From positions 868,001 to 932,000 of the forward strand of contig NC_018691.1 in assembly GCF_000300005.1 (NCBI RefSeq): 64,000 nucleotides of DNA, read 5' to 3'. Under the pieces are notes generated by a model that saw only the letters and a list, made by a program, of their open reading frames with translations, searched no databases and was not told the origin of the DNA. Within the stretch, counting starts at the first letter, position 1. Each line of letters starts with the position of its first letter. The stretch is from Alloalcanivorax dieselolei B5. GTDB taxonomy: Bacteria; Pseudomonadota; Gammaproteobacteria; Pseudomonadales; Alcanivoracaceae. Both the position numbers and the translations under genes were made by a program. This document shows, piece by piece, positions 30,861-49,194 of this stretch.

Positions 30861-30882
30861 CTAAACGCTGGTGGTTACAAGG

Positions 30883-30962
30883 CCGCTGTGGGAGCTTGCC
30901 CTGTAAGCGAATTGTGCTTTCGGGCCCAGGACATTCGCTTGCAGGGCAAGCTCCTACAGCGG
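30883..30962. repeat. REP/BIME-like palindrome 3
   Basis: Arms at 30883-30912 and 30933-30962, matching at 28 of 30 positions when one is reverse-complemented (CCGCTGTGGGAGCTTGCC... and ...GGCAAGCTCCTACAGCGG). It lies in the gap between paaX and paaG. Confidence 0.8.
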
Positions 30963-31139
30963 GCTTCCCGGGCCGCCCTGATTCCTTATTGAGTTTTCTT
31001 GTGGGAATTTTGGTAGCACAAAGGGAATGACCTAGGCTTTGAGCTTATCTTGCTGAAATTAAAAGAAAAAAACGCCTTATTCCGGATCTTGTTCTTATTC
31101 TGTTCTTCTAATTCGATACACAAATATGGATTTGGCGTT

Positions 31140-33993: not shown

Positions 33994-36210
33994 TTATCCT
34001 GGGGCGACAGAGTGTTCGTCAGCGGTGCTTTGTTGGGGCAGGGGGATCCGTGCTTCCATACAAAATTCGTAAGGGGCGCCTGTCAGACAGTACAGTGATA
34101 ACTCGCCATTGAGCTCCAGAATGCGTGTTCGCATGTTGCTCAGGCCGCGTCCGGGGAGTCCGTCCTGCCCCTGGGTAAAATGGGAGCTGTCGAACTCATT
34201 GCGGAGAATCAAAAGCAGCTCGCCCCGCTGATTCAACTCGGCCTGGAAAGTGAGCTGTGTTGGCGCGCCATGCTTGAGAGCATTGGTGATCGCCTCGTCC
34301 AGAACCCGGCGCAGGTTAATGTAATGACGCGGCGATAGGTAGATGTCATCCAAGTCTCCCGATATCGACCAGCTCAGGTCGAACTCCGGTGCCAGCCGTT
34401 CACGAAGGTCGCCATGCCAGTCCTCGAACAACTCCTGGAGACCATAGCGGCGTTTATGGTCGAGAGCATAGATTGCCTCTCGTAGCGCTGACAGAGCGCT
34501 ACGTGCCAACCTTTCGTTGCGTTCATTCGGGGCCTTGTGAATCAAGGTCAGAAGCCGGCCACCAACATCATCGTGCAGATCCCGCATGATCCGCTGGCGC
34601 TCCTGGTTGGCGCCGGCCTCCCGGGCCCGTCTTACGTTGTTGATCCGTACCGCGGTGGAAATCAATGCCTGGGCTATCTCTTTGTCCCGGGTACAGTAGA
34701 GTCGGCGGCCGCCTTGACCGTAGAGCAGACTTATGCCCCCCGAGGCATCGCCCAGTGCGGGAACAAGCAGGCGGGCGCCGTTGCCGGCCAGGCGTGCTTG
34801 TTCAATGGTGTCGTCGATGCGGTCCAGTGAGAGGGGCTGGAATACCTGTCGAAGCAGGTCCTGCCAAAGAGGTGAAGTGCGGTCGTCGGGGCTGGTATAC
34901 AGGGCTTCCACGAAGGCGGGGATGTGGCGCTCCATATTGACTTCGGATGAAGCGGCGAGCCGCCGCCAAAGCCATTGCCGAACGGGAAAATAGATCCAGC
35001 CCACCGCGATGACAGAGAACGCCAGGGCGTGCGCGTGGCTCAGGCCGAAGGAGGTGACCACCAGAATATCCACAAGGACGACGGTGAGTCCGCCGAGAAA
35101 CCAGGCCCATGCGGTGAACCACCAGCGTTCCAGATGGAAAAGACGGTAACGAAGAATCCCCAAGGCGAAACCCAAGTAAAGTGTTACCACCAGTCCGACC
35201 ATAGTGGAGGGGTTCGCGATTGGCGGTGTCTTGAGTACAACGGGTAGAAAATAAACCACCAGACCAGCCCCCATGGCGATAAGAATTGAAAGGAAAAACC
35301 AGCGTAATGCGGCTCGGTCCGTGGGGTTGTTCCGCGCCCCCCGCCATTGCAGAAAAACGAGCGCCGTGCCCAGCGGATAGTAAAGAAGCAGGGGAAGATA
35401 GTAGCTGTGCAAGGGCAGATCAAAAATCTGAAGATTCTCATTCGTTTGCTGAAGGACAACGGCGAAAACCAGAAAGAAGATGAGTTTTTGAGAATGCTTC
35501 AGTGGCTTTGGGTAGATAATCAGAAGAATCAGAAAGGCGAGAAGGAGAAGGTGCACCCTGATATGGTTCACTCTCATAAGCGTATCGAACTGCCATCTCG
35601 ACAAGGCGAGTTCTCTCACTTCCCACAAGCTATGTTGCCAGGTAGCCAGAAACATACCCGCGCCGGAGATTGCCAGAAGCCGGGCGGGCCAGTTTCTTGG
35701 CAGAAAAACCCACACTGAAAGTGCGATCAGAAGGGCAATAAGGCCGTATGAATGTAACAGCCAGAATGTGAGCGGCAAGGACGAGATCGGGCGGCGAGGC
35801 GCTGGTTTGAATGTCAGCTCTTCACCATCGTTGATTATCAAGGTAACGAAAGGGGCATCAAGGGCGTCGGCCAGTTGCCCCTCTTTATCAAGATAAGCGT
35901 TGTAGGCATCGAATGTCGGCTCCGCATGAGGTTGTAAGTGGTGATCATAGTTATCGACTGAGATCGGCGTGTTTTGTAGTAACAGCGCCCTTACATAATC
36001 GCCTGGATATAAGCGGCTGGCCAAAGGCCCCCGTTGGTCAACTCCGGTAACCTGTAACCCGTTCATCCCCGAGGGTGTGAACTGTACGCCAAGCCAGGGG
36101 CCACGCAGCGCCAGCCATGCGGAAAGCGCAATCGCCATAAATAGAAAAAGACTGACGGCTAAAAGGGTCTGTAAGGGCGCGACCCCCCATCGCGAAGGTT
36201 CGGAGGTCAC
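33994..36210 (-). CDS. Membrane sensor histidine kinase, HisKA_3 class, with PDZ-like sensor (kinase B)
   Basis: 738 residues. After a first membrane segment comes a periplasmic region resembling a PDZ domain (GLQVTGVDQRGPLASRLYPGDYVRAL), then about seven membrane segments, an uncharacterised cytosolic linker, and the NarL-family kinase core: ERQRIMRDLHDDVGGRLL with the phosphorylated His, RRVLDEAITNALKHG (N-box) and GRGLSNMRTRILEL (G-box). The layout recalls ComP of Bacillus. It is a paralogue of the kinase at 36491. It lies 280 nt downstream of that gene, in the order response regulator, kinase A, kinase B. The signal is unknown. Confidence 0.88.
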   Translation of the reverse strand: MTSEPSRWGVAPLQTLLAVSLFLFMAIALSAWLALRGPWLGVQFTPSGMNGLQVTGVDQRGPLASRLYPGDYVRALLLQNTPISVDNYDHHLQPHAEPTFDAYNAYLDKEGQLADALDAPFVTLIINDGEELTFKPAPRRPISSLPLTFWLLHSYGLIALLIALSVWVFLPRNWPARLLAISGAGMFLATWQHSLWEVRELALSRWQFDTLMRVNHIRVHLLLLAFLILLIIYPKPLKHSQKLIFFLVFAVVLQQTNENLQIFDLPLHSYYLPLLLYYPLGTALVFLQWRGARNNPTDRAALRWFFLSILIAMGAGLVVYFLPVVLKTPPIANPSTMVGLVVTLYLGFALGILRYRLFHLERWWFTAWAWFLGGLTVVLVDILVVTSFGLSHAHALAFSVIAVGWIYFPVRQWLWRRLAASSEVNMERHIPAFVEALYTSPDDRTSPLWQDLLRQVFQPLSLDRIDDTIEQARLAGNGARLLVPALGDASGGISLLYGQGGRRLYCTRDKEIAQALISTAVRINNVRRAREAGANQERQRIMRDLHDDVGGRLLTLIHKAPNERNERLARSALSALREAIYALDHKRRYGLQELFEDWHGDLRERLAPEFDLSWSISGDLDDIYLSPRHYINLRRVLDEAITNALKHGAPTQLTFQAELNQRGELLLILRNEFDSSHFTQGQDGLPGRGLSNMRTRILELNGELSLYCLTGAPYEFCMEARIPLPQQSTADEHSVAPG

Positions 36211-36490
36211 TGTTTATAGCCCCCCGATGTGTTGCTTTCGGATCTGTTCCGGTGCCTGGCTTTCCATGGACCGGATTGGCAAAGGCTGTGAGCGGAAAGA
36301 CAGTGAGGTCCGGTCTTCGGTGGTGCAACGGCGGTTGGCTCAGTTTTCATTTGTTTTCCAAATCGTCGCAGGAAGAGGGTACATATATCATATTCTTTCT
36401 ATTTCAAGAATTTATGAACATGATGCCGCGGTAAGGCGCTCCGTTGAGAAAGCCGGAAGTAGGAGTTGGTATGCCGTGGGGCTGCTTTTT

Positions 36491-38659
36491 TCAGGCAATA
36501 GGTGTTGCGACCCTGATCGTGGCGATGGAATTCCAGGTTTGGAATTGAAAACTTCCTTCCAGCTCTTCAGCGCGGGTTTGCATATTGTTTAACCCTCTTC
36601 TTGGGATCCCGCGATTTTCCTCCTGACCGATGGTCACACCATCGTTGCCGATCTCGAGAAGCAGGTGGTTTCCATCAATATGCAAGCTGACTTTAATGTA
36701 ATTTGGAATCGCATGCTTGAACGCATTGGTAAGTCCCTCGTGGATGATACGGCTAAGATTTATTCGTTGGCGCACGGTTATGGTTTGTTCAGGGTCAATC
36801 TTTCCCATTAACGACCATTGCAGTGGTACGGCCATTTCGTCACAGCGTTGACAGCAAAGGTCGTGCCAGTCATCAATGCTGTCAGCCAACCAGTTCAAGG
36901 ATTCCTGGTCGAGCGCTTGCAGTGCATCACGTAAGGATTGCAGTGCGTTTCGGGCGAGACTTGCTTGCCGGTCGTCGTTCGCGTTGTGCAGAACACTAAG
37001 TATTCTGCCACCAACATCGTCGTGAAGGTCGCGCATAATACGGCGCCGCTCGGCTTCAGCGCCGTCTTCTCGTGCCCTGACCGTGGACAGGGCCTGTTTG
37101 CTCATGGCTCTTAACAGGTCCGCGGTGCGCAGATCATCGGGGCAGAAAAGGCGCCGGCCGTTATCGGCGAACTCAAGCTGAAAGCATGGTTCTCCCGTCT
37201 CGAGGGGAGGCAAAATAAGCCGCGCACCATCTGTGGATACCGCTACCGAGGCGCCATCGGGATGCTCAGTCAGTTGACGAATGGCAAGCGGTGAGAAAGT
37301 CTGGTTCAGTAAGTCTGGCCAGGCGGATAGAATGCTCCCGGCGCTATTGACAGAAAATAGTTTGTCCACCAGCGTCTTGAGGGCAAGATCGAAGTTGCGC
37401 TGTCGGCTTTGACCTAACCTGTGCATAAGACCCTGCCTTAAAGGAAAGTAGAGCCAGCCTGCCAGTACCAGAGATAGCATCAGGGCGATATCTCCGGCCA
37501 GTCCTAGACCGAAGATGAGTGTCAGGTCGAGCAGTACAACCAGAACGCCGCCGAAAAACCATAGCCAGGTTTTGAACCACCATTGCTCCAGATTAAAAAG
37601 ACGGTATCGGGTCAGACCGGCCGCCATACCCAAATAGAGGACCAAAACGGAGACGAGACTGAGAGATAGTGGAATGCCGCGCTGTCCACCCAATGCCGGC
37701 GGTAGAATAATCAATGATGTAAGCAATAGGCAGCCTATGAAGATAGATATGGCACACCATTTCAAGGAGGCTCGCTCCAGTGGGTGGTCGCGTGTCAGGT
37801 GCCACTGTCGTCCAAGAACCGCAACGCCGGAGATAAAGCCGAATACAATGACCGAGTAGATGCTGTATCGGGGAGAGGCGCCAATCTGTAGCTGGTCCGC
37901 GAGCCAGGCCAGGACGCCGAGGAAAAGTATCAGGTAATGGACCGGAAGGCGTGATTGCCGAAATGGATAGACCCAGAAAAGAGCGGTCAGGGAGGCACTG
38001 ACCTGTAAGACGGCGAGGTGGTTAACGGACATTGCCAATGCCAGAACGTAGCCGCTGATGGCGAGCTCGCGCCCCCCATAGATGCCTAATGTTAAAGTGG
38101 TAAGAAAAATGCTGATACCTGATAGGAGGAACAGTCGCGTTTCTATCCTTCCGGGACTGTAGGCCCAGATTCCGGCGGCGACCAGAAGAGCCACCCATCC
38201 ATAGCCCGCTTTTACCAGAAAGTAGCCGATGGCCCTCTTGCTCGGGCGGCTATCCACCTGAAGAATGATTGCGTCTTGACTCTCGGTGATGACCTTTAGC
38301 TCGCCTGTTCCAATCTCCTTAACAAGTTGGTTGTGCTGTTCCAGTAAGGCGTTGTAACTCTGGTAGGAAAGTAAATCCGGATCTTCATGAATGGTGTCCG
38401 CGAATAGTGGGATCCGGGAACCATCGGCTCTTTCCACGGCGATCACCTTTTCGCCGGGGCGGATCCTGCCGGCATTGGGGGCTTCGGTGGAAACGCTGGC
38501 CACAGTCAGAAGGCCGCGCTCCCTATCCGCGTCCCAGGTGATGCCAAGTTGAGGGATGCTTATCAGATAGCCAGCGGACAGCGCGGTGGCAAGCAGTGCA
38601 AGCAGTGTAATGATGATGAGGCGTTGCTGCGGCGCGGCTCTTGTCACTGATGTGATCAT
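36491..38659 (-). CDS. Membrane sensor histidine kinase, HisKA_3 class, with PDZ-like sensor (kinase A)
   Basis: 722 residues with the same architecture as the kinase at 33994. A first membrane segment is followed by a PDZ-like periplasmic part (RGLLTVASVSTEAPNAGRIRPGEKVIAVE), then several membrane segments, and RRRIMRDLHDDVGGRILSV, RIIHEGLTNAFKHA and RRGLNNMQTRAEEL. Shared landmarks between the two include RYRLFxLExWWF and WLYFPLRQ (or WIYFPVRQ). It is 170 nt downstream of the response regulator at 38830 and probably phosphorylates it. Confidence 0.88.
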   Translation of the reverse strand: MITSVTRAAPQQRLIIITLLALLATALSAGYLISIPQLGITWDADRERGLLTVASVSTEAPNAGRIRPGEKVIAVERADGSRIPLFADTIHEDPDLLSYQSYNALLEQHNQLVKEIGTGELKVITESQDAIILQVDSRPSKRAIGYFLVKAGYGWVALLVAAGIWAYSPGRIETRLFLLSGISIFLTTLTLGIYGGRELAISGYVLALAMSVNHLAVLQVSASLTALFWVYPFRQSRLPVHYLILFLGVLAWLADQLQIGASPRYSIYSVIVFGFISGVAVLGRQWHLTRDHPLERASLKWCAISIFIGCLLLTSLIILPPALGGQRGIPLSLSLVSVLVLYLGMAAGLTRYRLFNLEQWWFKTWLWFFGGVLVVLLDLTLIFGLGLAGDIALMLSLVLAGWLYFPLRQGLMHRLGQSRQRNFDLALKTLVDKLFSVNSAGSILSAWPDLLNQTFSPLAIRQLTEHPDGASVAVSTDGARLILPPLETGEPCFQLEFADNGRRLFCPDDLRTADLLRAMSKQALSTVRAREDGAEAERRRIMRDLHDDVGGRILSVLHNANDDRQASLARNALQSLRDALQALDQESLNWLADSIDDWHDLCCQRCDEMAVPLQWSLMGKIDPEQTITVRQRINLSRIIHEGLTNAFKHAIPNYIKVSLHIDGNHLLLEIGNDGVTIGQEENRGIPRRGLNNMQTRAEELEGSFQFQTWNSIATIRVATPIA

Positions 38660-38829: not shown

Positions 38830-39471
38830 TCATAAATCCTGGTTTATAACGCCGAGGCGTACAGCTTGCAGTGCCGCTTCCGCACGGCCAGAAACACCAA
38901 GTTTCCGGTAGATGGTCTTGGTATAGGTGGCGACTGTATTGGCGGTAATATCCAGCGCCTCGGCGATATCGGTTCGGGTAAAACCCCGTGCCAGAAGACG
39001 GAGTACATCGGTTTCTCTCTGAGTCAGCTCAGGAGCTTCCTGTGGTGCCGTGGTGCGACGAAAATGGCGAAGAATTCGCCGAGCGACACTTGGAGATAAA
39101 GGGGGCTCGCCTCGGGCTATGCCCTGCAGCTGGGAGAGCAGCCGCGCCCTGGGTTGGTCTTTGAGAATATAGCCCAGGGCACCGGCTTGCAGTGCGGCAA
39201 ACAGGTGGTCGTCATCATCATAGATCGTGGCCATGATGATATAGGTGTCAGGTGATGTCGCTTGCAGTTGGGCAACCAGGTCCAGACCGTTCCCATCGGG
39301 GAGGCTGATATCGACCATGGCCAGATTAAAACTGTCTTTACTGGCTTTGATGCTCGCACTGCTCAACGTGTCAGCCATCTCAATGATAATGCCCGGGAAA
39401 GCTTGCCGCATCAGGTCGGCGAGCCAATCTCTGCTCTCCTGATGGTCTTCGACGATCAGTGCTGTTTTCAT
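38830..39471 (-). CDS. LuxR/NarL-type response regulator (copy 1)
   Basis: 213 residues. The receiver domain has ALIVEDHQESRDW (acidic pocket), LAMVDISLPDGNG (phosphorylated Asp), IMATIYDDD and LKDQPRA (Lys). The C-terminal helix-turn-helix runs LTQRETDVLRLLARGFTRTDIAEAL and VATYTKTIYRKLGVSGRAEA. The start at 39471 (MKTALIVED) replaces a longer frame by seven codons. It lies upstream of the two kinases and diverges from the lipoprotein gene at 39718. It is closely similar to the regulator at 48550. Confidence 0.9.
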   Translation of the reverse strand: MKTALIVEDHQESRDWLADLMRQAFPGIIIEMADTLSSASIKASKDSFNLAMVDISLPDGNGLDLVAQLQATSPDTYIIMATIYDDDDHLFAALQAGALGYILKDQPRARLLSQLQGIARGEPPLSPSVARRILRHFRRTTAPQEAPELTQRETDVLRLLARGFTRTDIAEALDITANTVATYTKTIYRKLGVSGRAEAALQAVRLGVINQDL

Positions 39472-39570: not shown

Positions 39571-39628
39571 CCCCTCTTTGGGGGACCCCATTTGAGGGAT
39601 TGGGGCGCACCGGGGTAGCTCCTATGCT
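39571..39628 (+). promoter_or_regulatory. GC-rich promoter element, copy 1
   Basis: 39571-39605 reads CCCCTCTTTGGGGGACCCC then ATTTGAGGGATTGGGG. Exactly 17 nt separate it from a TATGCT box at 39623-39628. An almost identical copy at 42755 keeps the same 17-nt spacing. The element covers the -35 position, so it may be an activator site for the divergent response regulator. The -35 itself is poor. Confidence 0.7.
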
Positions 39629-39717
39629 CGGAGGATGTCAACCGCACAGATACTGAGGCTGGAGAGAGGATGGCCAAATGCTCCTCCATTGCAACAGGTC
39701 GAACCAGGAGAGTGCCA

Positions 39718-42579
39718 ATGAGTATCGCGAATGTGGTGTCCCGATTCGGTGTGATACTACTATTTGCTCTGGTTGGGGCCTGCGGAGGAGGAGCAAGCCG
39801 AGACGGTGGCGCAAGTCCCGACGGAGGGGGCTCGCGTGAATGGCCAACTGCCGGAACTCCCGCACATACCGCCGAAGGTGGCTTGGATCTGACGGTCGTT
39901 AAACCCGTCGCGGGCGAGGCCTCACCTCTTCAGGTGCTTGAACTGACCGGATTGCCCAGTGATTTCGAGATCGCGGATCTGTATGTGGAGTTCTATGTAA
40001 AGGAGGGAGAGGCTCCACTGAAAGGTCAGGTTGATGAATTCCGTCTTCTACCGGTTTTCGAGCTTGATCAGACGTTCTTTCTGGCCATGCCGTTACTGGA
40101 CGCCGAAGGTGCCGTCATCGTATGGAGACTGACTGACGGAAATAGTACCAGTGAGACGTTTGAGACACAGATTGATGCCTTGCCACCGCCAAGGGTTGGT
40201 AGCGTCGATACGTTACTTGAAGGCGCGGAGGCTGTGCTGCGGGAAGCAACCGAGGCGCTGGGGCGCAGTTATCCCGATGAATGGGAAGGTTGGAGTGACA
40301 ATCTAGACCAGATGCCGGTTCACCTTATTCCCTTGTGGCAAAGCTGGCACGCGATGTTTGATAAGCAGAACGAGCTGGCCTGGATCAATCAGCCCATGCC
40401 CGACGACGTCAGAGTGATGCTCGAGCGAGTTCTGGCAGCGCAGCCGATGGATGAGACGATGTTTGGAATGGCTGCCTACTTCGCTGAAGGGCACAGTCTT
40501 CTGAATGATGCATCCGATCTTTTGCCAGTGCGCACCAATAGTGGTGTGTCGGCAAGAAGCTATATGCGGTATACGGGGGAAGAGCCCGGCAGAATCATCA
40601 GACAACAAGGGATGATGCCAATAGGGAATGCGTTGGCGCTGGCGGCTGAGCTGGAGAAGTATGATCAGGCCCGGCGGTCTCTACGTAACATGGGCCTTTT
40701 TGATAAGTATGTGGGTTCTTATATCTCCGCTGTGGGTATTCTGGCGGCATTGCCGGTTGCCGCTGGGACCGGAGGCGGTGCAGCGGCGGCAATAACAGCC
40801 GCCCGGCGCGAGCTGATGGCAAAGGTATCCAACATCGTCTTGTTTCTTTCTCGAGTGAACGGCGTCGCCAAGATTACGTCCCCGTGTTGTATCGTCTCAT
40901 TGGATGTCACGCTTGACCCGAAGAGTGGCCAGGTTACCGAGGACATGCCGGAAAGTCAGATCTGGCTCAATGACGCACGTGCCAGGGCGGAGAGCGAGCC
41001 GGTAAACATAACTCGGGATATTGCCGATGCCATCGTTAAGGATGCCGCGAAGATGATATCGGTAGGAATGAGCAAGGAACTGGCAGAAGTGTACGGTGAC
41101 GCTGTTCAACGATCGGGGATTGTGGGGGATGTCGGTGGTAAAATTATTGACTACGCGGCGAGCGGTATCGGCAAAAGGTTTCTGGCTTCTTTCCCCGTTG
41201 GCGCGGATATGTCGTTCTTCTGGAATGATGTCGATTTGATGTACGGCGAACCGCAGAAATGGCTCGAAGTTGAGGCAGCCAGCCTGTCAGGAAGCGCTGA
41301 TCAATCCATTGTTGAGCAAACACCTACCGGGCAGCACGAAATGGCGTTTCGGCTGCGTACCCCCCAGGCGTTCCATCTGCAAACCTCCTTGCTTCGTTTC
41401 AACACACGGCCAGAAGAATTACCTGCTGTCGCGCCAGCGATAACAACCAAGCGTATCTCACTGGACTATCTCGATCTTAAGTTCAATCCGTCGGTGCTTC
41501 GGGTTGAAGATGGGCCCGTGGATTTCTCTCTTACTCTGGAGAACGCCTCATCGCTGGGTGTTGGCGGAGGTGAGGATTACATCGATGTGAATGCCTTTCT
41601 GAACGGGTTCGCGGTGGGAAGTGTCGCGTATCACGGCCGTAGCGGCGCGGTGATGCACTTTACTTATATGCCGCCAGAGGGCGGATTTCCAGAAGACCTG
41701 TTGCTGGAAGTCGAAGCAAACGTGGATCTGGATACAGGAATACGGGCACCTTCTCACAATCCTCCCCCCCGTCGCGGCGTTCTGCTTGTTACGGGAGGGG
41801 AAGGCACTCAACGTCTGGAAATATCCCCACCCTCTAAGTGTATCCAGGAAGGAGAGCAACAACAGTTTACCGTGACCGGACTGGGTGGGGAGCCTGTTCC
41901 GGTTAACTGGAGAGTGGATGGTCCAGGGTGGATTACCGCGGAAGGGCTTTACACGGCGGGGGAGGCTAATGGTACCGGCCAGGTCGCCATTACCGCCAGT
42001 GTGCAAGGAAACGATACGATCACTGCCGTCGCCCATATGACAGTAGGAGACTGCACGTGTTGGTGGGATGGCCAGGTTGGTGGGGATTTTCAACAGCAGG
42101 CCGTGGGCGAAACGCAATGGATTGAGGTGGATGATCAGAACAGCATCGTCGCGATGAAACACCACAGTGGCGATTTCTCGCTTCTGCATCTGGACTTATC
42201 CGAAGACCCTATTGCTCCGGGGGCTACTGGAACATATCGGGCGGTGGTACAGCCAGGTCATTTCGGTAATACCCTGCCGTCGGCCAGAAGTGTCTGGTAC
42301 AACCCCTCGTCCCAGATGGCGGATGCGGCTGGCCTGACACCGATACCAAAGGCGATCGTGCAGGTGACGCGGCATGACATGTTGAATTATCCGGATGATA
42401 TGGGCGTTGCTGATGGGGCACGTATGCTGGAAGCGCGGGTGACCGGGACGGTTGTATACGAGTGGTTGGAGTATGAACCCAACCGTATCGAGCGGGTGTC
42501 GGGTAACTTGAACGTGGGTATCAGAGGAAGCTACTGGATTGACCTTGGCTTTGGTATCAACTGCAGTCGCGGGCTATGA
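39718..42579 (+). CDS. Large lipoprotein with Ig-like C-terminal domain, function unknown
   Basis: 953 residues from the ATG at 39718, which has AGGAG upstream and gives a clean signal peptide with lipobox (FALVGACGGG). A Gly/Asp/Ser-rich linker follows. Near residues 690-780 a bacterial Ig-like (Big) segment can be seen: LEISPPSKCIQEGEQQQFTV, then NWRVDGPGWITAEGLYTAG. The middle part is not recognised; a hydrophobic Ala/Gly-rich stretch (IAALPVAAGTGGGAAAAI-like) occurs near residue 360. Its promoter carries the GC-rich element at 39571. Probably located in the outer membrane or on the cell surface. Confidence 0.75.
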   Translation: MSIANVVSRFGVILLFALVGACGGGASRDGGASPDGGGSREWPTAGTPAHTAEGGLDLTVVKPVAGEASPLQVLELTGLPSDFEIADLYVEFYVKEGEAPLKGQVDEFRLLPVFELDQTFFLAMPLLDAEGAVIVWRLTDGNSTSETFETQIDALPPPRVGSVDTLLEGAEAVLREATEALGRSYPDEWEGWSDNLDQMPVHLIPLWQSWHAMFDKQNELAWINQPMPDDVRVMLERVLAAQPMDETMFGMAAYFAEGHSLLNDASDLLPVRTNSGVSARSYMRYTGEEPGRIIRQQGMMPIGNALALAAELEKYDQARRSLRNMGLFDKYVGSYISAVGILAALPVAAGTGGGAAAAITAARRELMAKVSNIVLFLSRVNGVAKITSPCCIVSLDVTLDPKSGQVTEDMPESQIWLNDARARAESEPVNITRDIADAIVKDAAKMISVGMSKELAEVYGDAVQRSGIVGDVGGKIIDYAASGIGKRFLASFPVGADMSFFWNDVDLMYGEPQKWLEVEAASLSGSADQSIVEQTPTGQHEMAFRLRTPQAFHLQTSLLRFNTRPEELPAVAPAITTKRISLDYLDLKFNPSVLRVEDGPVDFSLTLENASSLGVGGGEDYIDVNAFLNGFAVGSVAYHGRSGAVMHFTYMPPEGGFPEDLLLEVEANVDLDTGIRAPSHNPPPRRGVLLVTGGEGTQRLEISPPSKCIQEGEQQQFTVTGLGGEPVPVNWRVDGPGWITAEGLYTAGEANGTGQVAITASVQGNDTITAVAHMTVGDCTCWWDGQVGGDFQQQAVGETQWIEVDDQNSIVAMKHHSGDFSLLHLDLSEDPIAPGATGTYRAVVQPGHFGNTLPSARSVWYNPSSQMADAAGLTPIPKAIVQVTRHDMLNYPDDMGVADGARMLEARVTGTVVYEWLEYEPNRIERVSGNLNVGIRGSYWIDLGFGINCSRGL

Positions 42580-42754
42580 GCCCGGATCCTTCCGATTTAT
42601 TAATCCTTTGCGCTGGCCCGCCGTCGGAGAAGGCGGCAACGGCATACTACTACTTCTGACTTGGTGTCTCCTCGCCCAGTACATACCGGGCCGTCCGTGG
42701 TTTGCAGACGCGCCCCTTCGATTGCCCGGATTTATAAAGCTTCGCTGATTTGTA

Positions 42755-42813
42755 CCCCTCCTTTGGGGGACCCCGTTTGAGGGATTGGGGGAAAGGGGAT
42801 GACTCTCTATGCT
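42755..42813 (+). promoter_or_regulatory. GC-rich promoter element, copy 2
   Basis: 42755-42790 reads CCCCTCCTTTGGGGGACCCC, then GTTTGAGGGATTGGGG. It differs from copy 1 by one inserted C and one A/G change, and is followed after exactly 17 nt by TATGCT at 42808-42813. It lies 86 nt upstream of the small secreted-protein gene. Nothing else is seen in the 319-nt gap. Confidence 0.7.
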
Positions 42814-42898: not shown

Positions 42899-43414
42899 AT
42901 GAAGAAGGAAGCTTGGCTTTTGCGGCACCTAATCGGTGTGATCTCTTTGGCCGTCGTACTGCCGGTGAGTGTGGAATCGGCATGGGCCGATACTCTGGAG
43001 GGGGTACTGGAAGGGGAGTCCCTGTCCTGGCATGTGCTGCATGCCGATGATGCATCCACAGCCAGCTTTTTCAGCATTGCTCCGGGGATGACCAGTTATC
43101 AGATACAGGGGCATCGGGAAGAGAGATTCTCCGTGGCCGGCTCGATCAGTCTCTCCTTCACCGTCATGAATGGAAAGCTGTTGGCGGAACCCGAGGTGTC
43201 CTTCTTTCCCGAGAAAAAACTCTTCCCGATGTACAGCAACGAAGGACAGGGAAAACTGACTATTGAGCATCTCGAGAATGGGGGTGTGCCGAGAGCAAAG
43301 GGGCGCTATCAGGGCACCCTTGTACGTCTGGAAGGGGTGGGTAAGGACGCTGACCGTAGCGATACCTTGACGCTGGACCTGCTCTTTGACGTGCATCTGC
43401 GGGCGGATGACTGA
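42899..43414 (+). CDS. Small secreted protein of unknown function
   Basis: 171 residues. A signal peptide (LIGVISLAVVLPVSVESAWA) gives a mature protein of about 141 residues, beta-rich (SLSFTVMNGKLLAEPEVSF, GRYQGTLVRLEGVG). No family recognised. It is the first gene after the second GC-rich element, and the lipoprotein at 43584 follows after 169 nt, probably in the same transcript. The start follows GAAGGGATATGTCCT. Confidence 0.7.
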   Translation: MKKEAWLLRHLIGVISLAVVLPVSVESAWADTLEGVLEGESLSWHVLHADDASTASFFSIAPGMTSYQIQGHREERFSVAGSISLSFTVMNGKLLAEPEVSFFPEKKLFPMYSNEGQGKLTIEHLENGGVPRAKGRYQGTLVRLEGVGKDADRSDTLTLDLLFDVHLRADD

Positions 43415-43583: not shown

Positions 43584-45497
43584 ATGAATAACTATGGAAA
43601 AGTAGCAAAGACCACATCCTTGCTGGTGTTGAGCGCGGCAATCGCGGCGTGCGGTGGCAGTGGTGGTTCCAGTAGTGGCGGCAATGGCCCGGGAGGCGGT
43701 GATTCCGGTGGTGGCGGTGGTTCGGATGGCGGCTCCGTTAACGTTGTCACACAGATGCCTGAGGATGTGTCCGGCTTCGCCGTGACGGGGAACGAAGAAG
43801 CTCTGTACTTCACCCAGGTAAAAGGTTCCCCGCAGGACGGCTCCGGTCTGTATATGGTGGAAAGCCTATCCGGGCAGCCGCAAGTGGAAGATGTGGACGT
43901 CAATGTGGGTATTGGATTTCATGATGTGACGGACATGGATCCCAGCAACATGAGGTTTATTAGCCGCCACGAAAATACTTTTTTTACCTTGTTCGAGGCG
44001 GACGGGTCAGCGGGGGATCTGGAGAACCTGAGATCAAGTTTTCTTTTCTATGCTGATGGCTCGGAGGAGGATCATCTGGGCAATGGTTACCGCCGTGTCA
44101 TGGTCAGCCCGGACCATCTTGTTCGTACACCGGAGATGGTGACGAATGCGAAGAAAGCTCCACAACTCCAGCCGAGCCGACAGGTCCTTCATGATCTGAA
44201 CGACGCGGGCCGGACTTGTCTGCTTGATCCTACGGATAATTTTAACAAAAACTGGAAACAGATCTGTCTGAACCACGGCATGACCACCCCGCCAGGACAG
44301 CTTTTTGACATGAGGGTGTTCGCGGCGACGCTGGATCCTCAGGCCATGAAAGGGGAGGGTTACCTGGCCATTGATGATGATAACGTGCTGCGCTTTATCG
44401 GCAGGGATCTGCAGAACCTGGGGCCTGTTCTTGATGCGGACACCGGTAATCCGGTAACCGATATCATGGAGGCTGCGGACCTTCGCATGCGCTCGACGGA
44501 GGGCCACCAGTATGTGGTTTTGTATATTGAGGATCGGGATCATCCCGAAGTCTGGCTGTATGAAACGGATGCGGCGGGGGCCGGAACCGTCAAGCGGGTA
44601 ACATCGGCTGAAGGTGAGCCGCTGTTGATGGGGCACAACGTGGCCAACGTGCTTCAGATTCCCGATGACCGGAATGTCACCGTTATGAATGGCGAGACCT
44701 TCTTCCTGTATGCCGATGTGGAGGGCGATATAACCAGTTCATCGGTGAACCTGATCCGCCTGAGCGGTGATACCTGGTCAATAGCCACCACGATCGAGGG
44801 CGGAGCTTTCATGGGGGGCACCGCGACGACGTTCTTGATGAATGCCGGTGGACATCTGGTTATGGAAAGCAACGAGGCTGACGGCGGCAAGGAAGTGATC
44901 GCCCTGCTTCCGGATGGTTCTGGCCGTAAGGTCATGGACGCCCGGGGGAATGGTGTCTTCCAGTTGAAATTTGATCGGCAGCCCGTGCTGGGTACCAGCG
45001 CCAATGGCGAATGGCTTTTTTACAACCGATTTGAAGATAAAAGTACCGGCGAGACCCAGTGGAGCCCGGTGGCGGTGGCGTTGAACCCGGCAACCAATGA
45101 GCGTTTGGATATGGCGGGCTGGACCTGGGTGGGCGCGAGCTCCAACGGCAAAGGTTCCCTTGATATGCGTCACGGTAGTGAGACTCTGGCTCAGGTGTTC
45201 ATGGTCGGGCCGAATACCGAGCTTGCGGCATTGCAGGCGGATGACCCCATGGCGGGCAAGGTGAACTTCGGAGCGTTGCCTGACGGCGTCACCGCGGCGC
45301 GGTTTAACGGTGTCGGTCCGGGGCCCCGCCGCTTGCTTTGGGCGATGAGCAACGATGACGACGAGGAGGATTACCTCTGCGTGTGGAGCCAATGCACCTA
45401 CGATGTGCTGTACCTGGATGTGCGTGACGAGGGTTCTCTGCAACTGCTTACCGAGAGCTCCAGCTCCCATTTGCAGAGCCCGCTGCCGAAGTTCTAA
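43584..45497 (+). CDS. Lipoprotein of unknown function with propeller-like repeats
   Basis: 637 residues. The ATG at 43584 (after GGGAG) begins a signal peptide with lipobox SAAIAACGG, followed by a Ser/Gly-rich linker (GGSSSGGNGPGGGDSGG). The mature part reads as repeated beta blocks (ALYFTQVKGSPQDGSGLYMVE, FFLYADVEGDITSSSVNLIRL, NGEWLFYNRFEDKSTGE) such as those of beta-propellers. A Cys pair (YLCVWSQCTYDVLYLDV) lies near the C-terminus. Longer frames upstream lack a ribosome-binding site. Function unknown. Confidence 0.75.
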   Translation: MNNYGKVAKTTSLLVLSAAIAACGGSGGSSSGGNGPGGGDSGGGGGSDGGSVNVVTQMPEDVSGFAVTGNEEALYFTQVKGSPQDGSGLYMVESLSGQPQVEDVDVNVGIGFHDVTDMDPSNMRFISRHENTFFTLFEADGSAGDLENLRSSFLFYADGSEEDHLGNGYRRVMVSPDHLVRTPEMVTNAKKAPQLQPSRQVLHDLNDAGRTCLLDPTDNFNKNWKQICLNHGMTTPPGQLFDMRVFAATLDPQAMKGEGYLAIDDDNVLRFIGRDLQNLGPVLDADTGNPVTDIMEAADLRMRSTEGHQYVVLYIEDRDHPEVWLYETDAAGAGTVKRVTSAEGEPLLMGHNVANVLQIPDDRNVTVMNGETFFLYADVEGDITSSSVNLIRLSGDTWSIATTIEGGAFMGGTATTFLMNAGGHLVMESNEADGGKEVIALLPDGSGRKVMDARGNGVFQLKFDRQPVLGTSANGEWLFYNRFEDKSTGETQWSPVAVALNPATNERLDMAGWTWVGASSNGKGSLDMRHGSETLAQVFMVGPNTELAALQADDPMAGKVNFGALPDGVTAARFNGVGPGPRRLLWAMSNDDDEEDYLCVWSQCTYDVLYLDVRDEGSLQLLTESSSSHLQSPLPKF

Positions 45498-45538: not shown

Positions 45539-45567
45539 GCATTACGCATTCACAGGGAGGGATGACA

Positions 45568-47346
45568 ATGTCATCTCCAACGTTTTACCGCGAGCCGGTA
45601 TGGCCGTGGCGTGTCTGGGGTCTGGCTCTGGTACTGATGGCGCTGGCTGCCTGCGGCGGTTCGTCGTCCGGTGATTCTTCTTCTTCGCCATTGTCACCTG
45701 AGGAAGGAAGTCCGCAGCCGGAACAGCCTTCTCCGTCTGAGCCCCCGGAGGAAGAGGAGCTGCCGGAAGGAGGGCCTTTATTGGGCGCGGTACAAAAAGG
45801 GCCGTTCCAGGCGGGGGCTAAAGTAACGCTGGTTCCTTTGCGGCATGGGGTTCCCGTGGAGGGCGCTCGCGAGCTTGAGACCACGGTGGACGAGCGCGGC
45901 CGATACACCTTCTCCGGTACAGGGCTTGAAGGGCCGGCGCTGCTGCGGGCCAGCGGATATTGGTTCGATGAACGTAGCGGTCAGTACAGCGGTGAGCCGG
46001 TCACTCTGCGGGCAGTGGTGAACGTCGCCGACGGTGAAGCCAACGTTAATGTGTTGACTGATTTGATCAGCGAACGATTGCAAAAGGCGCTGGCCGATAA
46101 TGACGACGATTATCCCACCGCGCTATCCAGCGTGATGGCCGATTATCGCGAGCTCACGGGCTTGAACCAGCCTCCGGGATTGCTCGATATGCTGAAAGGG
46201 TTTATCCAGGGAGAAACGCTGGATGTTGGTTATTACCAGGAATCCCGACTGCTGCCATTGATCGCCGCCGCCGCGGCGGAAAGTGCCATGCCCGGTCTGG
46301 CCGAAGCGCGCTCGGGTTTCGCCATTGATGGCGCGGACAATGAAAGCGCCCGGGCGTTCTGGGAAGCCATGTGGGAGGGGTACGCCTCCTTGGTGGCGGA
46401 GCATCATGATGAGACCACACTGCTTGAACATCTGCAGGCGCAACTGAACGGGCAGTACCCTCTGGCCGCCGGAGAAACCTTTGCGCCGGCTGTCCTGGGC
46501 GGGATGCGCAGTGTGCTGGTGGGCAATGCGCCAAGTTGCTCCCAGGGGCCGAATGGCAGCAATGATGATTTCAACAGGCAAATCTGCCCGGGAGCCGGAG
46601 CGCAGGATGTGTTGGTGGGAGAGGAGTACGGGGCAGCAGGGTTTTATCTGGATGCGCCGGCCGCCGCCAGCTACGTGGTGCGTTTGAGAGTGCCGCACAC
46701 TCCTGACAACCGCAAGATAGTTCTGGAATATACCCCTTCGGGCCGTGTCGGTTATGGTGATATCGCCGAGCAGTGCAGCGGTTACGACGCATGCGATGTG
46801 GGAACCCGGGCATTGCGAGAAGGAGAACGGGTTTTCTTTCGTATCAGAACCACGGGAAAGGCGCGCACGGTACAAGTGTTGGCGGAGCGTTTGGGTGATG
46901 GCCACCCTGTTCAGCCCATGGTGATTCATCCCAACCGTGCGCCCTACCGTGGGTGGGCAGGCAGTAAGGATGGTTCCGCCTTTTCGCAGAGTGCCTACAG
47001 CGGCACCGCTAACGTCAATAGTTATGCGCATTACCTGTTCTATGTGGGCTCGGGCAGGCGAACCTTGTTGGTGGACGACTTCGTATGCGGCGGTGTGCCT
47101 TCGCCTCTGGGGCATCGTATGCATTTGTTTTTGGCAAAAATGACGTCCAAAGGTTACGTCGCGGTAATGAACGACTCGACCTATTCCTGTGACGGTCTTC
47201 GTCACGAGATCGGCGGCGGTGAGACGGGCGTGTACTACCTTAGAGTCCATCCTGATTATTATGGGACGGCATCGGGGCATAGCGCCACATTGCGCTATGA
47301 CTTCCGTATCCAGCTTCAGCCCTGGTCAGCCACAGGACCGGAATGA
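45568..47346 (+). CDS. Lipoprotein of unknown function with N-terminal carboxypeptidase-regulatory-like domain
   Basis: 592 residues. Signal peptide with lipobox MALAACGG, then a Ser/Pro/Glu linker (SPEEGSPQPEQPSPSEPPEE). Residues 65-150 start GAVQKGPFQAGAKVTLVPL and read like a small beta-sandwich found in surface lipoproteins. The rest is not recognised. The C-terminal 200 residues are beta-rich and include YDACDVGTRALREGERVFFRI. I took the ATG at 45568, 7 nt after GGAGG, over the ATG 6 nt earlier. A perfect hairpin follows the stop. Confidence 0.75.
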   Translation: MSSPTFYREPVWPWRVWGLALVLMALAACGGSSSGDSSSSPLSPEEGSPQPEQPSPSEPPEEEELPEGGPLLGAVQKGPFQAGAKVTLVPLRHGVPVEGARELETTVDERGRYTFSGTGLEGPALLRASGYWFDERSGQYSGEPVTLRAVVNVADGEANVNVLTDLISERLQKALADNDDDYPTALSSVMADYRELTGLNQPPGLLDMLKGFIQGETLDVGYYQESRLLPLIAAAAAESAMPGLAEARSGFAIDGADNESARAFWEAMWEGYASLVAEHHDETTLLEHLQAQLNGQYPLAAGETFAPAVLGGMRSVLVGNAPSCSQGPNGSNDDFNRQICPGAGAQDVLVGEEYGAAGFYLDAPAAASYVVRLRVPHTPDNRKIVLEYTPSGRVGYGDIAEQCSGYDACDVGTRALREGERVFFRIRTTGKARTVQVLAERLGDGHPVQPMVIHPNRAPYRGWAGSKDGSAFSQSAYSGTANVNSYAHYLFYVGSGRRTLLVDDFVCGGVPSPLGHRMHLFLAKMTSKGYVAVMNDSTYSCDGLRHEIGGGETGVYYLRVHPDYYGTASGHSATLRYDFRIQLQPWSATGPE

Positions 47347-47410: not shown

Positions 47411-48343
47411 TCAACCATGCTCCTGTAACCAAAGAGCCAGGGCGCCTTTATCGCGCACCCCCAACTTCTGGTAGATGCGGCTGATATGGCTGCGCACGGT
47501 GGTGGGGGAAATATTCAGGGTCCTGGCGACATGTTTGTGACTTTGGCCCTGGGCGTACGCCCAGGCCACTTCCTTTTCCCGTTTGCTGAGCGCGGTAACC
47601 ACGCCGGGCTGCGCACACACCAAAAGCCGGGCGCCGACTCGTTCCGAGGTCAGGGTTATTGTCTTGCCCCGGTAACGCTTGGATGCCCAAAGAGAAAGAA
47701 TGACGTCTTGCGGCAGTTGCCGGTGCGCCGAGGGCCCCCACTCGTGAGTAACCAGGGTGGTGAAGTCCGGTAGCACGGCATGTAGCAATCCTTTGGTGTC
47801 CACCAGCGCCGCCGGTGCCCGAAAAGTGGACAGATAGTGCTTGTCGTTATTGCAGGCGGCAAGGAACAGGTGCTGAGTGACCAGATTCTTGAATTCCACT
47901 TCCCTGGCGCTGAACCCCGTATATCGATGGTCCCGTGCCAATGTTACAAAGATATGCAGCCCGGTATGGGGATCGATCTCCATGGTCGAGATCATTTGCC
48001 GTGCCTGATAAAGACGCCAATGCTCGTTATAGGCACGGCTTTGATAAATGTTGGGGATCTGGTTAAGCGACCAGGTTTTGCCGGTATTGCCGATGACCAG
48101 GTGAGCGTATAGGTCCTCTTCCTTGACCGCTTCCCACGTGTCGAACAGCGTATCGGTCTGGTCAAGGATGGTCGCGGTATGCAGTTCCCGGCTCTGGCCA
48201 TCTCCAGTGCCCCAGATGGCGAAATCAAAAGCAACATGCCGGCGTATCTCATCCAGCGCCCAGCGCTGAAATTGCACGGGTTCAAGATGCATGCTGGCAT
48301 CGTGTACCGTCAGTAAAAAATCACTGATTTTATGGAGCGACAT
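47411..48343 (-). CDS. LuxR-type transcriptional regulator, no receiver domain
   Basis: 310 residues. The C-terminal LuxR helix-turn-helix is clear: LSKREKEVAWAYAQGQSHKHVARTL followed by SPTTVRSHISRIYQKLGVRDKG. The N-terminal 240 residues lack a receiver and do not show the acyl-homoserine-lactone pocket residues I would expect; a PAS/GAF-like ligand domain is possible. The start at 48343 (MSLHKISDF) has GGGGGA about 8 nt upstream; a longer frame extends 40 codons further without support. It lies between the lipoproteins and the second response regulator and could control either. Confidence 0.8.
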   Translation of the reverse strand: MSLHKISDFLLTVHDASMHLEPVQFQRWALDEIRRHVAFDFAIWGTGDGQSRELHTATILDQTDTLFDTWEAVKEEDLYAHLVIGNTGKTWSLNQIPNIYQSRAYNEHWRLYQARQMISTMEIDPHTGLHIFVTLARDHRYTGFSAREVEFKNLVTQHLFLAACNNDKHYLSTFRAPAALVDTKGLLHAVLPDFTTLVTHEWGPSAHRQLPQDVILSLWASKRYRGKTITLTSERVGARLLVCAQPGVVTALSKREKEVAWAYAQGQSHKHVARTLNISPTTVRSHISRIYQKLGVRDKGALALWLQEHG

Positions 48344-48374
48344 ACCATGGTTCCCCCGTCCCTTTGGGGATTGA

Positions 48375-48394
48375 GAAGCGGTGAGCACCGCTTC
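48375..48394. promoter_or_regulatory. Perfect 9-bp dyad upstream of the LuxR-type regulator
   Basis: GAAGCGGTG (48375-48383), AG, CACCGCTTC (48386-48394). It lies 32-51 bases upstream of the chosen start codon, a typical operator position, so autoregulation is possible. Confidence 0.45.
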
Positions 48395-48549
48395 CGTTGT
48401 CGTTGTTCCCCGATTAAGCGTTGAATTGCGCTGGCTCTGTTCCCTTGAGTCAGTGTAGTACATTTGCAGGATGTTGTGTCGGGTGTTGGCGGCGTTAGAT
48501 TTTCCCGCGAGGGATGAGCGTTGTCAGAAAGGGGGAGGCGGGAGCCGGC

Positions 48550-49194
48550 ATGTTGAGCGCATTGATCGTTGAGGATCATGAGGAAAGTCGTGATTGGCTG
48601 GCGGGGCTGTTGGAGGAGGCATTTCCCGATATCGTCGTTGAAAGCGTGGGGACCTTGGCCGGGGCGGAGGCGATATTATCGGTTCGGAGCTTTAGTCTGG
48701 CACTGGTTGATATCAGTTTGCCGGATGGGTGTGGCGTGGATTTGGTGAAATCCTTGAACCGAAGCGCCCAGGAGACCTATGTGGTGATGGCGACGATTCA
48801 TGATGATGATGGACATCTGTTCGCCGCGCTTCAGGCGGGCGCGCATGGATATCTGCTTAAGGACCAGCCCAGGGCCCGATTGCGCTCTCAATTGCAAGGG
48901 ATCGCCCGGGGCGAGCCACCGCTTTCACCAAGCGTCGCGCGGCGAATGTTGCGACACTTTCGGCGTATGGAGAGCTCGGCTGAGGAAGTGCCGGACCTGA
49001 GTGAACGTGAAACGGAGGTGCTGCGTTTATTGGCCAGGGGATTCACCCGTACCGATATCGCGGGGGCGTTGGGAATCGCGGCCAGTACGGTGGCGACCTA
49101 CACCAAGAGTATCTATCGGAAACTGGGCGTATCCGGCCGCGCCGAAGCGGCGTTGCAGGCGGCGCGGCTTGGTGTGGTGAACAGCGATCATTGA
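48550..49194 (+). CDS. LuxR/NarL-type response regulator (copy 2)
   Basis: 214 residues, closely similar to the regulator at 38830. Identical blocks include LVDISLPDG (one difference in context), LKDQPRARL, SQLQGIARGEPPLSPSVARR and YRKLGVSGRAEAALQA. The receiver Asp and Lys are intact. The start at 48550 (MLSALIVED) has GGGAG upstream; another ATG lies 12 codons earlier. No kinase is adjacent, so it may be served by one of the tandem kinases at 33994-38659. It is divergent from the LuxR-type regulator. Confidence 0.9.
   Translation: MLSALIVEDHEESRDWLAGLLEEAFPDIVVESVGTLAGAEAILSVRSFSLALVDISLPDGCGVDLVKSLNRSAQETYVVMATIHDDDGHLFAALQAGAHGYLLKDQPRARLRSQLQGIARGEPPLSPSVARRMLRHFRRMESSAEEVPDLSERETEVLRLLARGFTRTDIAGALGIAASTVATYTKSIYRKLGVSGRAEAALQAARLGVVNSDH

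Follow-up and report, generated by a model that had tools for sequence, protein, structure and literature searches.

A two-copy promoter element of Alloalcanivorax dieselolei, very probably the operator of a two-component system for which no description was found

At the yeaR-yoaG and ogt promoters of E. coli, the NarL site is an inverted 7-2-7 repeat that either touches the -35 hexamer or lies immediately upstream of it, and ogt has a second NarL site further upstream (-44.5 and -77.5; PMC7419079). The locus analysed here lies in a window of 64,000 nucleotides of A. dieselolei B5 (NC_018691.1, positions 868,001 to 932,000) and is laid out similarly, with a NarL-type regulator and two 7-base elements 2 bp apart against the predicted -35; its second unit is 14 bp upstream, unlike that of ogt, at 33. 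The predicted targets also differ from those of NarL, being lipoproteins and an exported protein predicted to be beta-rich, and no nitrate link is known. The NarL consensus has the spacing CYY-N6-RRG, and the half-sites here, ACCCCRT/TACCCGT and GNGGGAT, are only partly like that consensus. A search of the open-access literature found no description of these strings or of Alcanivorax regulators with lipoproteins, in agreement with the sequence-only reading, which knew of no described regulon with this element.

The locus, its regulators and its candidate targets

From the element, the gene order runs leftwards through RR1, HK3 and HK2, and rightwards through the 953-aa lipoprotein, sec, lip2, lip3, the LuxR-type gene and RR2 (window coordinates):

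33994..36210, minus strand: HK2, histidine kinase that shares 75% identity with the one next to the RR1 orthologue in A. xenomutans
36491..38659, minus strand: HK3, histidine kinase paralogous to HK2, with 69% identity to the one next to the regulator of the relative G011
38830..39471, minus strand: RR1, NarL/FixJ-type response regulator and leading candidate for binding the operator
39718..42579, plus strand: 953-aa lipoprotein
42899..43414, plus strand: sec, 171-aa exported protein
43584..45497, plus strand: lip2, 637-aa lipoprotein
45565..47346, plus strand: lip3, 593-aa lipoprotein
47411-48463: LuxR-type protein
48514..49194, plus strand: RR2, RR1 paralogue with a putative operator role

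RR1 combines a receiver with a C-terminal GerE/LuxR helix-turn-helix, both above cut-off (Response_reg 71 bits, GerE 59 bits). It is 72% identical to RR2; the closest other full-length regulators encoded in this genome reach 26-29%, with partial matches up to 39%. It aligns to DevR, NarL and VraR, its best solved-structure match being DevR/DosR (3c3w), a member of the same regulator family. Unlike for DevR/DosR, no hypoxia link was seen here. DevR/DosR recognises G/C runs, and the DevR box is a different palindrome from the element described below. Against the NCBIfam models NarL, MadR, MctR, UhpA and ErdR, all of the same superfamily, RR1 scored 45-110 bits, far below the curated cut-offs of 250-390; the best scores were for NarL (110 bits) and MadR (109 bits), and at 109.7 bits against a cut-off of 250 it is not a NarL equivalog. 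Both kinases contain DLHDDVGG, a candidate phosphorylation motif of the H-D-x-x-G type, and their HATPase_c matches (20.6 and 21.3 bits) lie below the curated cut-off of 26.4. HK2 and HK3 stand side by side (33994-38659), are paralogues about 35% identical, and share the locus with two regulators. Further left, at 30879-30966 and outside the listed ORFs of at least 90 aa, the window holds a 34-nt inverted repeat with arms 91% complementary and 20 nt between them, which may be a REP-type or terminator element.

None of the four exported or lipoprotein genes matched a Pfam family at E 0.001 or an NCBIfam family at E 0.01. Sub-threshold matches were the only ones for the 953-aa lipoprotein (Ig-like, Big_2) and for lip3 (Pfam, including a weak HI0933-like one). 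For the 953-aa lipoprotein, searches of 12 further genomes from the genus, of viral contigs and of plasmids were all negative. The sec protein has orthologues in A. xenomutans (58%) and G011 (52%); a search of genome contigs, sensitive to close relatives only and missing the 58% orthologues, confirmed no relatives. Its predicted structure is beta-rich (mean pLDDT 77) and had no PDB match at E 0.001, the best being at 0.02, with YceI/BcnB-like entries among the top matches, which are too weak to assign a function.

Anatomy of the two promoters

The element, of the form TTTGGGGGACCCC[A/G]TTTGAGGGATTGGGG, occurs twice in the window, at 39571-39605 and 42756-42790. Each copy is 35 nt long, the two are 91% identical, and each ends exactly 17 nt before TATGCT (39623-39628 and 42808-42813). 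The sequence-only reading, which had reported two near-identical copies with this fixed spacing before the 953-residue lipoprotein and a small secreted protein, is thus confirmed: the TATGCT of copy 1 ends 89 nt before the 953-aa lipoprotein gene and that of copy 2 ends 85 nt before the gene of the 171-aa exported protein. At up to three mismatches, the core pattern TTTGGGGGACCCCRTTTGAGGGATTGGGG gave 2 matches in the window against 0 in 100 dinucleotide shuffles. The genome scan that the earlier reading had proposed bore it out, since a 29-nt core at the same tolerance returned the same two matches only from the whole 4.93-Mb genome (reversed-pattern control 0) and none far from promoters. Looser searches of this genome gave one extra match against one control match at three mismatches, and five against two at two mismatches; one of the five precedes a CGG lipoprotein gene (L122), and the other four look like chance and were set aside.

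Two near-identical copies 3.2 kb apart might be expected if the element were a small repeat of mobile or recombination type that plays no part in regulation. This is highly improbable: there are only two copies in the genome, both stand at the same distance from the -10, and related sites lie beside the regulator in other genomes (see below).

The features of the two promoters are as follows:

39571..39586, plus strand: copy 1, upstream imperfect repeat of the putative operator, with a C-rich arm (CTTTGGGGGAC); kept in A. xenomutans, not in G011
39585..39600, plus strand: copy 1, putative core operator ACCCCAT-TT-GAGGGAT (CCC-N6-GGG), centred at 39592.5, which is about -42 relative to the predicted start
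39600..39605, plus strand: copy 1, predicted -35 hexamer TTGGGG, 17 nt before the -10
39623..39628, plus strand: copy 1, predicted -10 hexamer TATGCT
42756..42771, plus strand: copy 2, upstream imperfect repeat of the putative operator
42770..42785, plus strand: copy 2, putative core operator ACCCCGT-TT-GAGGGAT
42785..42790, plus strand: copy 2, predicted -35 hexamer TTGGGG
42808..42813, plus strand: copy 2, predicted -10 hexamer TATGCT

TTGGGG-N17-TATGCT is best read as the -35 and -10 of a sigma-70-type promoter core, in which TTGGGG is a poor -35; a generic promoter scan called neither of the two promoters. As the last six nucleotides of the element would be the -35, the operator proper would lie upstream. 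Between the two promoters, 27/35 positions agree in the 35-nt block that directly precedes the -35 (from 58 to 24 nt before the -10) and 6/6 in each hexamer, and the flanks (13/60 and 11/42), the spacer (5/17) and the downstream region (20/94) are near chance. Within the element, the downstream unit ACCCCRT-TT-GAGGGAT is an inverted repeat, CCC-N6-GGG, that abuts the -35 and overlaps the hexamer by one base; the centre of another unit, less regular, lies 14 bp upstream of its own. The direct repeats noticed earlier, TTTGGGGGA and TTTGAGGGA, are both present, 14 nt apart from start to start, but what relatives conserve is the inverted repeat CCC-N6-GGG and not the direct repeat. Counted from a predicted transcription start 7 nt after the -10, the operator centre falls at about -42; class II activation calls for a site near -41.5 that overlaps or abuts the -35. 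The 7-2-7 arrangement of NarL (inverted heptamers 2 bp apart, CYY-N6-RRG) is found in both copies, in A. xenomutans and in G011; the match is one of spacing, the full NarL heptamer being only partly matched.

The site beside the regulator in related genomes

In A. xenomutans JC109 (L046) and Alcanivorax sp. 24 (L045), which encode an RR1 orthologue at 83% identity, the order is lip3-lip2-sec-[element]-RR-HK2, and a single copy of the element is present (CCCCCCTTTGAGGGTACCCGTTTGTGGGATTGGGC, then 17 nt, then TATGCT). Its 35-nt block in A. xenomutans matches the lipoprotein copy at 28/35 positions and the sec copy at 25/35, with flanks near chance and spacer identities of 3/17 and 10/17, respectively. 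When the full element was searched at up to three mismatches in 57 genomes (our own and 56 relatives), only our own genome gave matches; the A. xenomutans copy escaped this search because it is more divergent, and a looser local scan found it. A merged pattern at up to three mismatches matched in 3 of 46 family genomes. In G011, G004 and G005, the core with TATGCT at the identical offset lies between the HK3 orthologue and lip2-lip3, and sec follows lip2-lip3 in G011 and G004.

A search of 46 family genomes for genes with at least 53% identity to RR1 turned up 13, spread over 11 genomes. With one mismatch allowed, the core MCCCNTTTGNGGGATKGGG was present at 14 sites in 13 of the 46 (reversed control 0), and nine of these sites have such a regulator no more than 3.5 kb away. 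Five of these nine had served to write the pattern; with the pattern-source sites left out, four of nine are near a regulator (G004, G005, G028 and G032; p about 1e-11 for random placement), not all independent, as G004 is near-identical to G011. The five sites elsewhere precede CGD/CGG lipoproteins (G012, G413), an ORF of about 390-420 aa (G415, G033) or nothing clear (G025). The one-mismatch pattern missed sites beside the regulator in G021, G030 and G035, those of G030 and G035 matching the core only at three mismatches. Altogether, at least one site lies beside the regulator in 11/11 family genomes that have one at 53% identity or more; a second regulator of G005 (L113) has no site nearby. 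The sites of the relatives stand before lip2-lip3(-sec), before exported or lipoprotein genes, or before the regulator gene itself. G028 has TATCGT and TATATT at the same offset before an exported-protein gene and a lipoprotein gene. In G021, G030, G032 and G035 a site precedes the regulator gene, and the hexamer at this offset is CATGAT or CATGCT; G021 has an additional divergent site. Of the two adjacent response regulators first put forward as candidates, the one at 38830 (RR1) gains from this comparison; that at 48550 (RR2) is linked to the element through its 72% identity to RR1, and no site lies within 3.5 kb of it.

The distance to the -10 is kept as well. In 14/15 sites chosen by hand at regulator loci, [TC]A[TC] occurs at offset 32 from TTTG, and it is here that TATAAT matches are most numerous on average (3.6, against 0.5-2.1 at 20 other offsets); the 15 are not all independent, with G007/G008 and G011/G004 as near-identical pairs. 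The 15 leave out the one-mismatch core matches L062:1126, L064:6421, L045:20607, L046:15591 and L046:20545, and every core match in the remaining regulator loci examined. The exception (G021, L063) has no -10 at offset 32 and TAGGCT at 33, and three sites (G030, G035 and the divergent one of G021) match TATAAT at offset 32 in only 3/6 positions. Outside the 15, a hand count places TATCGT at offset 32 of the second, divergent site of G032. In two genomes that belong to another genus (L062:10839-10902 and L115:10002-10102), the regulator gene is preceded by two sites in opposite orientations, and -10-like hexamers stand at the same offset from them, counted by hand for the divergent site of L115; divergent autoregulated promoters are possible there. 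A motif matrix trained on eight chosen sites and run on 12 lipoprotein upstream regions of the window and the regulator loci scored only two training sites, and missed one true site (L063) owing to a wrongly set start.

This conserved geometry bears on the direction of control. A regulator covering the -35 could shut the promoters, and the core does abut the -35, overlapping it by one base; a repressor site is nevertheless unlikely, given the poor -35, which fits a promoter in need of an activator, and the single distance to the -10 in 14/15 chosen sites. Repressor sites usually tolerate positional shifts. The activator site at the -35 proposed at the outset has its location backed by the comparison, and we consider it likely that the element and TATGCT form a promoter core in which an operator read by the adjacent NarL-type response regulator stands against the -35, acting in activation.

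The arrangement is found within the family. At regulators of 55-62% identity outside it (L047/G308, L065/G290, L048 and L049), no site had a convincing -10 at offset 32, with offsets counted by hand; L065 and L048 have the bare core, and more distant homologues likewise lacked a site. In 390 genomes of the order, a 16-nt core with no more than one mismatch was matched 20 times and its reversed control 23 times, which is background; the 18 genomes of this family in that scan gave four matches (G000, G011, G021 and G016), all before lipoprotein or exported genes.

A related palindrome and a model of the locus

A related palindrome, ATCCCC-N6-GGGGAT (ATMCCCNATTTGGGGGATG, up to two mismatches), gave 171 matches, both strands counted, in 41/46 family genomes, against one for the reversed control; loci with it include L153, L155, L156, L157, L158, L161, L163 and L164. 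In 12 regions chosen for holding such sites, 10 of 23 sites precede CGG/CGD lipoprotein genes and two precede genes judged LuxR-type from alignment. Our own genome has a zero-mismatch palindrome before a lipoprotein gene at 4.561 Mb (L153:9118, G000:C1:4561117) and a two-mismatch one inside an ORF at 4.854 Mb. The palindrome is also present in genomes with no regulator match at E 1e-40 (e.g. G019, G410 and G416), implying that another protein reads it, perhaps a LuxR-type protein. Judged from these genome comparisons, it marks many family lipoprotein genes independently of the RR1-type regulator.

The element could likewise be read by a stand-alone LuxR-type regulator, such as that encoded at 47411-48463, within the same regulon as ATCCCC-N6-GGGGAT. 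Such a gene does lie within the cluster, the palindrome has the same CCC..GGGGAT core and precedes CGG/CGD lipoprotein genes and two LuxR-type genes, and the G012 and G413 core sites stand before lipoprotein genes away from the regulator. Against this, operator, regulator and kinase are all retained at the loci of A. xenomutans and G011, where tblastn over 20 kb each gave no match to the LuxR gene, the palindrome occurs in genomes without the regulator, and the palindrome L122 of our own genome has no -10 at offset 32. This makes a LuxR-type reader rather unlikely, and the element is very probably the promoter operator of a two-component system for which we found no description.

If RR1 is the reader, HK2 and/or HK3 would phosphorylate it, and perhaps RR2, on an envelope or extracellular signal. 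A dimer of the regulator would then bind the core near -42 and contact RNA polymerase (class II activation), a second dimer at the weaker site 14 bp upstream would assist, and the 953-aa lipoprotein and sec-lip2-lip3 would be turned on together. Two two-component systems seem to have merged at the locus, with HK2 resembling the A. xenomutans kinase and HK3 that of G011. Copy 1 retains the position adjacent to RR1 and copy 2 that adjacent to sec, with the 953-aa lipoprotein gene between them; the simplest history would be a lineage-specific duplication of the promoter core as this gene arrived between RR1 and sec. We tentatively entertain a broader scheme, in which HK2-RR1 (as in A. xenomutans) and HK3-RR2 (as in G011), once separate, were joined on one operator, the giant lipoprotein was wired in by copying the promoter core only, and LuxR-type proteins perhaps read the similar family palindrome, so that both classes of regulator may use one DNA code, jointly or in competition.

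The analysis brings to light a second operator-like palindrome, family-wide in occurrence, that precedes lipoprotein genes. For a two-component system of the Alcanivorax family with no description found, it would provide a candidate DNA target, a small putative regulon and a promoter layout, and would tie that system to exported and lipoprotein genes that are nameless in Pfam and NCBIfam.
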